Assembly: GCA_022842905.1 (NCBI GenBank)
Contig: JALHOS010000013.1
Span: 1 to 42,612, forward strand
From: Myxococcaceae bacterium
Lineage (GTDB): Bacteria; Myxococcota; Myxococcia; Myxococcales; Myxococcaceae
Direction: 5' to 3'
Length of the DNA stretch: 42,612 nt
Below the pieces are notes generated by a model. It saw only the letters and a program-made list of their open reading frames with translations. It ran no database searches and was not told the origin of the DNA. Shown piece after piece: positions 30,805 through 38,891 of this stretch. The translations under genes were made by a program, and so were the position numbers. Within the stretch, counting starts at the first letter, position 1. Each line of letters starts with the position of its first letter.

Positions 30805-31554
30805 ATGGCCGCGAAGAAGTCTCCACCGAAGAAGTCTCCACCGACCGACCCGCTGCTGGACCTCGCGCTGTCCTTGAGGGCCAAGGACGTGCAGCCGCTC
30901 CGCTTCGATCCGCTCGACGCCAAGCGCGCGATGCAGAAGGGCTACAAGGCGCTCCTCAAACACGCGCGGCGGCTCGAAGCGGACTTCCCGGGCTTCGACC
31001 TCGACGCCTTCGCGCAGGGCCCGGAGCTGTGCGATCGCGTCCGCCAGCAGCAGCGCAAGGCCGTCCAGCAGGTGACCGCCAGCGGCTCTTTGGGGCAGAT
31101 CCTCGGCGCGGTGCGCTTCCGCAAGACACTCATGCCGCTGGCGCAGAGCCTGGCGAGCGTGGGCAAGGTGCCCCACGCGGAGCTCGACAAGATCGCCCGT
31201 GGCCGCGGCCAGACGGACCAAGTGCAGGACGTCGCCGAGCTCGCCGCGCTGCTCGCGCCGCTCAAGGCCACCGTCGAGGCCGCGCTCGGCGCCGGCGTGC
31301 TCGAGCGGGCCGCGCAGGCCGCCGCCACGGCCTTGGGTGCACAGGGCTCGATCGACGCGGGAGACGACGAGAGCGCCGACCTGCGCGACCGCTACGCGAC
31401 GCTCGTCGGACAGGTCCACGAGCGCATGCGCGCCGCCGCCGCCGCCGTCACGTCCTTCAACGAAGCCGTCTTCCTCGTCCCGTCGCTCACGAGCCCGGCC
31501 GCTGGCGGCAAGGCCGACGCCGAAGACGCGCCTCCGAGCGGCGCTCCCGCCTGA
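30805..31554 (+). CDS. Hypothetical alpha-helical protein
   Basis: This 249-residue protein has an AAGGA ribosome binding site ahead of its ATG. The first residues contain a duplicated KKSPP (a 15-bp tandem copy in the DNA at about 30814-30843). The body is alanine/leucine-rich and predicted mostly helical (AKRAMQKGYKALLKHARRLE, RQQQRKAVQQVTASG, ERMRAAAAAVTSFNEAVF), with no signal peptide or membrane helix. No family is recognised. A 7-bp hairpin spans its stop codon, and the phased palindrome cluster lies just after it. Confidence 0.7.
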   Translation: MAAKKSPPKKSPPTDPLLDLALSLRAKDVQPLRFDPLDAKRAMQKGYKALLKHARRLEADFPGFDLDAFAQGPELCDRVRQQQRKAVQQVTASGSLGQILGAVRFRKTLMPLAQSLASVGKVPHAELDKIARGRGQTDQVQDVAELAALLAPLKATVEAALGAGVLERAAQAAATALGAQGSIDAGDDESADLRDRYATLVGQVHERMRAAAAAVTSFNEAVFLVPSLTSPAAGGKADAEDAPPSGAPA

Positions 31555-31561
31555 GCGGGAG
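31544..31561 (+). terminator. Hairpin spanning the stop codon of the hypothetical gene
   Basis: CTCCCGC (31544-31550) and GCGGGAG (31555-31561) pair around the 4-base loop CTGA, which includes part of the TGA stop. It is GC-rich but lacks a T-run. Transcription end or mRNA 3' stabilisation is plausible by position. Confidence 0.4.
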
Positions 31562-31687
31562 GCGGTGGAGTCCGATTCCTCCACCCAGAAGCCGCTCTCA
31601 TGGGCGGTGGATTTCGAATCCTACGGTTCTAATACCAAAGGCTGCGCGGAGGATTCCGAGTCCTCCGCGCCGGAGCCGTCGAGAAGG
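31562..31687. repeat. Three palindromic units on an exact 42-bp period
   Basis: Units start at 31562, 31604 and 31646. Each begins GCGG(T/A)GGA and contains a 13-bp near-palindrome of the form GGA(G/T)T(C/T)CGA(T/A/G)TCC at 31567, 31609 and 31651. The first and third extend into 7-8-bp hairpins (GGTGGAG/CTCCACC and GCGGAGGA/TCCTCCGC); the second is GGATT-TCG-AATCC. The remaining 20-odd bases of each unit differ, so the head is the conserved part. The cluster fills the convergent gap between the hypothetical gene and the MYXO-CTERM-like lipoprotein gene. Read in one plus frame it gives 14-residue units starting AVESDS, AVDFES and AEDSES, but no start codon supports a gene. Confidence 0.75.
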
Positions 31688-31688
31688 G

Positions 31689-32858
31689 TCAGGCTCCTGA
31701 CTCAACGCGCCCTCGCGAGCCACCGCCTCTGCGCGCGAACGGCTCGTCGGCCCCACGCGGGCGCCTCCGCGACGCCACCACGCCGAGAATCAGCAAGGCC
31801 ACCGCGAGCGGCCCGCCCCCCGACGAGCAGCCACACTGAGCCCACCCCGGCGCGCCGCCGCGCAGCGGAACGCCAGCGTCGAACTGGGCAGGCACCGACG
31901 CCAGCAGCAGCAGCCTGTTCTTGGCGTCCCCGACGCGCGCTTCGACGAAGACGGTGTCCTCGATCATCGGGCCAGACGACGTGCGCCCACGCAGCGCGAG
32001 CACGTCGGCGCGCCCCAGCCCCGCATCGACGAGCTCGAGGCGCGGGTCGAAGGCCCAAACGACGGGCGCCGCCCAGAGAACCTGGCCGCCGTCGATGAAG
32101 GACGTGGCCTTGATCGCCAGCGTGTCGCCGACCTCACGCGCGACCAGCTCGACGCGGGCGACGCGATCGACGGGCGCGCTCGCGACGGTGAAGGACCCAA
32201 GCGTCCGTCCGCCCAAGCGAAGCCCCACGGCCGTCGGCGGCAGGCCGGCGCTGGGCATGTCGATGATCACCGCGCCACCGTCGAGGCGACCCACCGCCGT
32301 CACGTCCAGCGAGAGCAAGTTGGCGCTGAACACCATCGGCCCGCCGTCGGCGGTGCGCGCGAAGGCCTCGAACGCCAGCGACTGGCCCGGCGCGACGAGC
32401 ACCGCGTCACCCGCGGCGGGCCAGAGCGCGCCGGCCGTCAGCGGCTCAGCCACGGCGCGGAGCGGATCGTCGACGACCAGCCCGGCGGCGGCCTCCGCGT
32501 TGAGCGCGAACACGTCCACCACACCGCCCGCATCCCACGCCAGCGTGGCGCGCCCGGCGTCACCGATGACAGCGACCAGCTCGCCGTCGCCCGCGTCGAG
32601 GTCGGAGAAGATCGGATCGCCCCCAACGGCCGCCTGGGCGGAGAACCGGCCCTGCACGCGACCTCCGTCCGCGGTGCCGACGCAGCGGAAGCTCACCGTG
32701 CTCCCGACCGCCACGACGTCGCGACGGGGATCGAAGGCTCGGTACCCGCGCGCCAGCGGTGTCACGAACCGCAGCCGCTGCCCGTCGCCGAAGAACTCGT
32801 CCGCACAGCCGCTCGCTGCGACCAACCACCACCAACAGACCAACGCCCAGCGCTTCAT
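31689..32858 (-). CDS. Lipoprotein with MYXO-CTERM-like sorting tail
   Basis: This 389-residue protein starts at ATG 32858 behind a GGAGGGG ribosome binding site. The signal MKRWALVCWWWLVAASGCAD has an ASGC lipobox (C18). The body is beta-rich, Ala/Gly/Val-dominated and resembles repeated bacterial Ig-like domains (VAVGSTVSFRCVGTADGG; VLVAPGQSLAFEAFARTADG). Near the C-terminus CGCSSGGGPLAVALLILGVV, followed by ASRRRPR, looks like a MYXO-CTERM domain, the Cys-TM-Arg signal of myxobacterial surface proteins. It is odd that some 20 residues follow the arginines and that the protein is also a predicted lipoprotein. Surface location is inferred. Confidence 0.8.
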   Translation of the reverse strand: MKRWALVCWWWLVAASGCADEFFGDGQRLRFVTPLARGYRAFDPRRDVVAVGSTVSFRCVGTADGGRVQGRFSAQAAVGGDPIFSDLDAGDGELVAVIGDAGRATLAWDAGGVVDVFALNAEAAAGLVVDDPLRAVAEPLTAGALWPAAGDAVLVAPGQSLAFEAFARTADGGPMVFSANLLSLDVTAVGRLDGGAVIIDMPSAGLPPTAVGLRLGGRTLGSFTVASAPVDRVARVELVAREVGDTLAIKATSFIDGGQVLWAAPVVWAFDPRLELVDAGLGRADVLALRGRTSSGPMIEDTVFVEARVGDAKNRLLLLASVPAQFDAGVPLRGGAPGWAQCGCSSGGGPLAVALLILGVVASRRRPRGADEPFARRGGGSRGRVESGA

Positions 32859-33017
32859 CGCTCGCCCCTCCCCGGCCCCGCGCCGCGCCCAAGCAAAGTC
32901 GCAGCCAATGACGCTGGCCTGGGTGCGCCCCGCGGCGGTGGGCACGAAGCGCGACATCGGTGACGCGCCCGGCGCGGAGCATGACGCGCGCGCCAGAGCG
33001 GCGAGGCGCTCGTGGGT

Positions 33018-33416
33018 TCAGCAGGCGCTCGGCCGGGACTCGAAGCGGCGCTGCCCCTGCGCCAGCCTGCTCAACACCCGCGAGGACCCAAGGGCAGACG
33101 CGGCGCGGGCGCGGTCGAGCGGGTCACGCTCGATGACCGCCAGAGCCCGCGCGAGCGTCGCCATGCCAACGCCGCCGAGGAGCGCGACCGGCTCGTCGGC
33201 CCCAAGTGGCCGCGCGAGCGCCACCATGCCAACGCCGCCGAGGAGCGCGACCGGATCGTCGACCCCAAGCGCCCGAGCGAGCGTCGCCATCCCGACGCCG
33301 CCGATGAGCGCGACCGGCTCGTCGACCCCAAGCGCGCGAGCGAGCGTCGCCATCCCGACGCCGCCGATGAGCGCGACTGGATCGTCGACCCCAAGCGCCC
33401 GAGCGAGCGTCACCAT
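33018..33416 (-). CDS. Possible repeat protein with 21-residue repeats, probably remnant of a longer frame
   Basis: From ATG 33416 the minus strand encodes 132 residues. The first part is about four copies of a 21-residue unit of the type MATLARALGVDEPVALIGGV, followed by a non-repeat basic end (RDPLDRARAASALGSSRVLS). Third codon positions in the repeat are about 90% G or C, as in neighbouring genes, which supports coding on this strand. Two further repeat copies upstream (33465 and 33528) are in other frames, so the gene may be frameshifted, phase-variable or dead. There is no clear ribosome binding site, because the ATG lies inside a repeat. No family recognised. Confidence 0.3.
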   Translation of the reverse strand: MVTLARALGVDDPVALIGGVGMATLARALGVDEPVALIGGVGMATLARALGVDDPVALLGGVGMVALARPLGADEPVALLGGVGMATLARALAVIERDPLDRARAASALGSSRVLSRLAQGQRRFESRPSAC

Positions 33417-33571
33417 CCAACGCCACCGATGAGCGCGACCGGATCGTCGACCCCAAGCCCGCGAGCGAGCGTCATCATCCCGACGCCGCCGATGAGCGCG
33501 ACCGGATCGTCGACCCCAAGCGCCCGAGCGAGCGTCACCATCCAACGCCACCGATGAGCGCGACCGGATCG
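33151..33571. repeat. 63-bp tandem repeat (minisatellite), about 6.7 copies
   Basis: Copies begin with GCGAGCG at 33151, 33214, 33277, 33340, 33403, 33465 and 33528. Five intervals are exactly 63 bp; 33403-33464 is 62 bp through loss of one base near its CCATCC. The last, partial copy has the same variant (CCATCCAACGCCACC), so the 33340-33464 pair and the 33465-33571 pair look like a 125-bp duplication inside the array. On the minus strand the 63-bp unit encodes 21 residues. Array length may vary between strains. Confidence 0.9.
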
Positions 33572-38805: not shown

Positions 38806-38891
38806 AGAGGTAGTCGGTGGTGAACCCTTCGCCCCTGCCCTTCTTCACGAGAAGGCGCGGGGGCGAAGTCGTTTCGAAGCGCGAAACGCGC

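Follow-up and report, generated by a model that had tools for sequence, protein, structure and literature searches.

A putative decayed 42-bp triplication with hairpin-forming cores between two convergent genes of a Myxococcaceae bacterium

REP elements and BIMEs are short imperfect palindromes with G-T pairs that occur in clusters downstream of genes, often convergent ones (PMC3733652). Stem-loops concentrate at the 3' sides of genes (PMC1590033), and stem-loop ends devoid of a U-tract, the 'I-shaped' terminators, have been described for GC-rich genomes (PMC8269248). The locus presented here consists of three 42-bp units in the gap between two convergent genes (Table 1). It is similar to REP elements and BIMEs in its clustered imperfect palindromes, its G-T pairs, and its intergenic position downstream of genes (PMC3733652), but it occupies two loci instead of many and its three units stand head to tail. 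Neither a GTAG nor a CGTC tag (tag families according to PMC3733652) was found beside the three palindromes on reading the sequence. Like a MITE, it includes a small non-coding block with roughly inverted ends that is present at two places, but it shows no clear TIR boundary or identified partner transposase, and one copy is truncated. With the U-tract-less 3' stem-loops it has in common a GC-rich hairpin past a stop codon that is not followed by a T-run (PMC8269248); it differs from them in being three-fold at fixed spacing, and its role at a 3' end is a prediction from sequence. The reading favored here, to which we assign about even chances, is a decayed local triplication of a 42-bp unit with a hairpin-forming core, which was partly copied once and possibly serves as a two-way 3'-end structure.

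The window, i.e. the whole stretch of 42,612 nucleotides that was analyzed, is contig 13 of a genome of 7.85 Mb in 667 contigs. Both flanking genes end into a gap of 134 bp (31555-31688), and the 13-mers described there in an earlier note, starting at 31567, 31609, and 31651 with spacings of 42 and 42 bp, were confirmed in the sequence. The near-palindromes have a TCGA/CCGA center in common. The 23-nt cores of the three units are alike at 17-19 of 23 positions. The 19-nt spacers agree at 5 of 19 positions between units 1 and 2 as well as between units 2 and 3, and at 10 of 19 between units 1 and 3, so that the divergence claimed for the bases between the motifs holds for the first two pairs and only in part for the third. 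The cores are much more alike than the spacers, a pattern not expected if a plain duplication had decayed uniformly. Scored for three-fold repetition at equal spacing, the gap attains its best value, 67 of 99, at period 42; this exceeds all 2000 first-order Markov randomizations of the gap (mean 39.5, maximum 51) and ranks fourth among 230 gaps drawn from 0.85 Mb of the genome. Equally spaced triples of 6-pair palindromes, with G-T pairs allowed, occur seven times in 0.85 Mb of the genome and in none of 5000 randomized gaps. Single 13-mers are unremarkable, as the window holds eight of them at two mismatches versus nine by chance. The array is real, yet local.

Table 1. Coordinates of the array, its flanking genes, and the block found a second time in the genome.
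Feature	Position in window	Strand	Remarks
Left convergent gene	30805-31554	+	249 aa
42-bp unit 1	31562-31603	.	palindrome GGAGTCCGATTCC at 31567-31579
93-bp block	31574-31666	+	90% identical to C316:1940-2032; starts mid-palindrome 1
42-bp unit 2	31604-31645	.	perfect palindrome GGATTTCGAATCC at 31609-31621; weak hairpin
42-bp unit 3	31646-31687	.	palindrome GGATTCCGAGTCC at 31651-31663
Right convergent gene	31689-32957	-	422 aa

The conserved centers of the 13-mers, the divergent spacers, and a constant 42-bp distance that is retained in the second copy as well would suit three operator-like sites, placed four turns apart on one helix face and bound by a dimeric protein. Against such an arrangement, no promoter-like site was found in the convergent gap, the sites exist at only two places in the genome, and the tandem arrays of this genome (periods e.g. 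33, 63, 96, 97, and 104) show no preference for whole helical turns or multiples of 21; a phased protein-binding site is possible but unlikely. A more specific form, which we consider very unlikely, is an element of three helically phased sites located at transcript ends, whose cores and 42-bp spacing would be kept while its spacers turn over, and which would be read by a DNA- or RNA-binding protein of the lineage. If this was true, an array of 42-bp units that follows a homologous gene of another genus would represent an independent instance. That array (G009:C82; L122:1141-1359) comprises 5.2 tandem copies with the 13-nt palindrome GCCTTCGGAAGGC and lies ~160 nt behind a homologue of the 249-aa gene; it was not found elsewhere in the 145 genomes searched. 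It was rejected as the same element, as the similarity of its unit to the window units is at shuffle level (p 0.12), and judging from the sequences it is probably independent of the window array. The other homologue in G009 is directly followed by an 85-bp unit with the hairpin CCTCCGGAGGGGTTTTTCCCCTCCG, present in 2.3 tandem copies (C86; L123:752-948). The window itself harbors a 63-bp tandem repeat of 6.8 copies between the 422-aa gene and an AhpC/TSA gene (33145-33571), and a 15-bp repeat, GCCGGGGATGACGCG, whose 8.9 perfect copies run off the contig end (42479-42612).

The sole related place in the genome is the copy on C316 (Table 1), which is likewise located between convergent genes and contains palindromes 2 and 3 only, as palindrome 1 is without its left half. 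Motif pairs at 42 bp with ≤3 mismatches are confined to these two loci, and of the 16 single 13-mers in the genome, five lie inside the two elements. The two copies are distinguished by nine substitutions, four in cores and five in spacers, and by no indel; they do not differ over the first 33 bp (probability of 0.015 for randomly placed changes), and palindrome 2, perfect in the window, is broken in C316. Changes that affect palindromes and spacers alike, a palindrome 2 that is perfect in one copy only, and a conservation that is not seen beyond this genome (60 relatives, 145 genomes of the order) are consistent with a neutral repeat, i.e. a functionless duplication in non-coding DNA driven by slippage or by the palindromes. 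Against this reading, core agreement among the three units is far higher than spacer agreement, and palindrome 3 is long and nearly perfect; the probability of a neutral repeat is appreciable but clearly minor.

The same copy bears on mobility. A low-copy MITE- or REP-like element with palindromic boundaries, mobilized in trans by a transposase, would account for a second copy in an unrelated gap and for the ends of the block in palindromes 1 and 3, which are roughly inverted to each other (78%). This explanation is doubtful, given that there are two copies only, one of them cut at a palindrome center, that no target duplication was seen in the flanks examined, and that plasmid, phage, and viral collections gave no match. 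Dispersed duplicates of gaps are not rare in this genome, with 18 of 233 sampled gaps recurring in a sample that covers 11% of it, and therefore one duplicate needs no special mechanism. The mobile small repeat family considered in the earlier note gains slight support from one partial second copy; the high copy number of REP elements is absent. An element of ~160 bp that looks like a MITE was found dispersed in the genome (L068:8418-8579, L093:11861-12022, L091:1442-1583; fragments at L103:19735-19781 and L071:3950-4000). Two of its copies are 97.5% identical, each forming one long hairpin with the ends GCAGGGTGTTGAG...CTCAACACCCTGC at a gene's end. On C316 (L048), a TonB-C-terminal-like gene is followed, in its downstream gap, by degenerate repeats of its own 3' end (1314-1366, 1422-1474, 1683-1735, 1766-1804).

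Among 60 relatives from other genera, nothing was detected except one match of 24 bp within a coding frame; across 145 genomes of the order, the matches were all short and weak, and several fell on the third hairpin. In nine related genomes, 42-bp-spaced motif pairs were few, each with the full three mismatches allowed. No match was obtained in plasmid and phage collections with the 161-bp stretch as query, or in GTDB contigs and viral contigs with the exact 21-mer core. The 42-bp-spaced 13-mer led to one further locus, C316, and to weak matches alone in relatives. With 42-bp pairs at two loci of the genome and an element that is missing from the 60 relatives and 145 genomes of the order bar short weak matches, the chromosome-organizing site suggested earlier is not supported, and neither are a described repeat family or a high-copy repeat. 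A regulator pseudogene, suggested by the 24-bp match in G021 within a WYL-regulator-like frame, was rejected because the E value of this match, 5e-4 over 145 genomes is near chance and the two WYL loci of the own genome are without a QKPLSWA-like sequence.

Both flanking genes are gene-like by codon-position GC content, and neither product has a Pfam or NCBIfam match. The C-terminal tail of the 422-aa protein, hydrophobic plus arginine, resembles a sorting tag by inspection. Close homologues of the left gene exist in three other MAGs (labelled Archangiaceae, Myxococcales, and Myxococcus), and a paralogue is located on C62. The array sequence is absent from the readable 3' flanks of these homologues, where other hairpins or arrays are found. 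A gene-linked array or hairpin feature was rejected: the flanks of close homologues share no sequence, and distant homologues are without arrays. As 42 bp equal 14 codons, the units might be the remnant of a protein-coding 14-residue repeat (AVESDSS../AVDFESY../AEDSESS..), since both copies of the block can be read through without a stop in one frame and one of the G009 homologues is followed by a 14-codon repeat. In the open frame, though, the copies differ by six non-synonymous codons and one synonymous codon, protein constraint is visible in no frame, and the similarity to the G009 unit is not beyond chance (p 0.12), making a coding origin highly improbable.

At the RNA level, the gap is predicted to fold better than its shuffles, with z -2.9 and -2.6 for the two strands. 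Palindrome 3 forms a hairpin of 12 pairs (arms 31644-31656 and 31658-31670; -21 kcal/mol on the plus and -19 on the minus strand), unit 1 an alternative hairpin, GGTGGAG/CTCCACC (31564-31585; -12 and -14 kcal/mol), and unit 2 a hairpin of -5 and -4 kcal/mol. In 24 convergent gaps from 0.85 Mb of the genome, at most five hairpins are stronger than that of palindrome 3. Its strength is ordinary for convergent gaps of this genome and is attained in none of 150 coding windows. Strong hairpins are slightly in excess in convergent versus tandem gaps (p 0.03) and not in excess versus divergent gaps (p 0.40). The folding of the C316 copy is no better than that of shuffles (z -0.38). Regarding the parts of an intrinsic terminator, palindrome 3 provides the GC-rich hairpin, and its stem is not followed by a T-run; no T-run follows any of the hairpins, and 31200-32000 contains no terminator-like site. 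The array is therefore not a canonical terminator, and of the multi-hairpin RNA terminator proposed earlier, what may hold is a 3'-end structure formed by the strong palindrome 3 hairpin. No Rfam covariance model matched in the window. Two other convergent-gap hairpins, at window position 38870 and at L091:8919, are each followed by AGTCGTTTCGAAGC, and an enrichment of TTTCGAA at 3' ends or in convergent gaps of the genome may exist, based on five counts.

The outer arms of copies 1 and 3 had been regarded as compensating. The fold of palindrome 1, GGTGGAG[8 nt]CTCCACC, has its center 1.5 bases off that of the 13-mer, and the 12-pair helix of palindrome 3 is centered on the 13-mer itself; as the pairing registers differ, the compared arms are not homologous pairs, which weakens that claim. 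In a common register, the five units (three from the window, two from C316) show two pairs changed on both sides, a number that 78 of 500 shuffles reach or exceed. Covariation is no better than in shuffled units, and five rows can neither prove nor exclude selection. Selection on the palindrome was not borne out: covariation equals that of shuffles, the inter-copy changes are not kept out of the palindromes, and the C316 copy folds no better than shuffles.

In the decayed triplication favored here, a 42-bp unit with a near-palindromic 23-nt core would have been triplicated in tandem within the gap and would then have decayed, a history that we infer from the repeat pattern. A 93-bp piece that starts halfway through palindrome 1 and extends to palindrome 3 would have been copied once to or from the other convergent gap. 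A function, if any, would be exerted at the RNA level, as palindrome 3 is symmetric enough to fold on both strands. Its hairpin may stand at the 3' end of either transcript, where it would block 3' exonucleases or assist termination; palindromes 1 and 2 would contribute weaker hairpins. The beyond-chance 42-bp triple, the one partial copy in another convergent gap, the folding of the gap, the strength of palindrome 3, and the frequency of duplicated gaps in the genome count for this reading; the missing T-run, the lack of a hairpin excess over divergent gaps, the folding of C316, and the closer agreement of cores than of spacers count against it. The locus also calls for caution, as exact spacing combined with palindromes can mimic a designed protein array, and genome-wide counts reveal a repeat that is local and has a single partial copy elsewhere. 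If 3' ends are set by the hairpins, the array would illustrate on a small scale how GC-rich myxobacteria keep convergent transcripts apart without T-run terminators.
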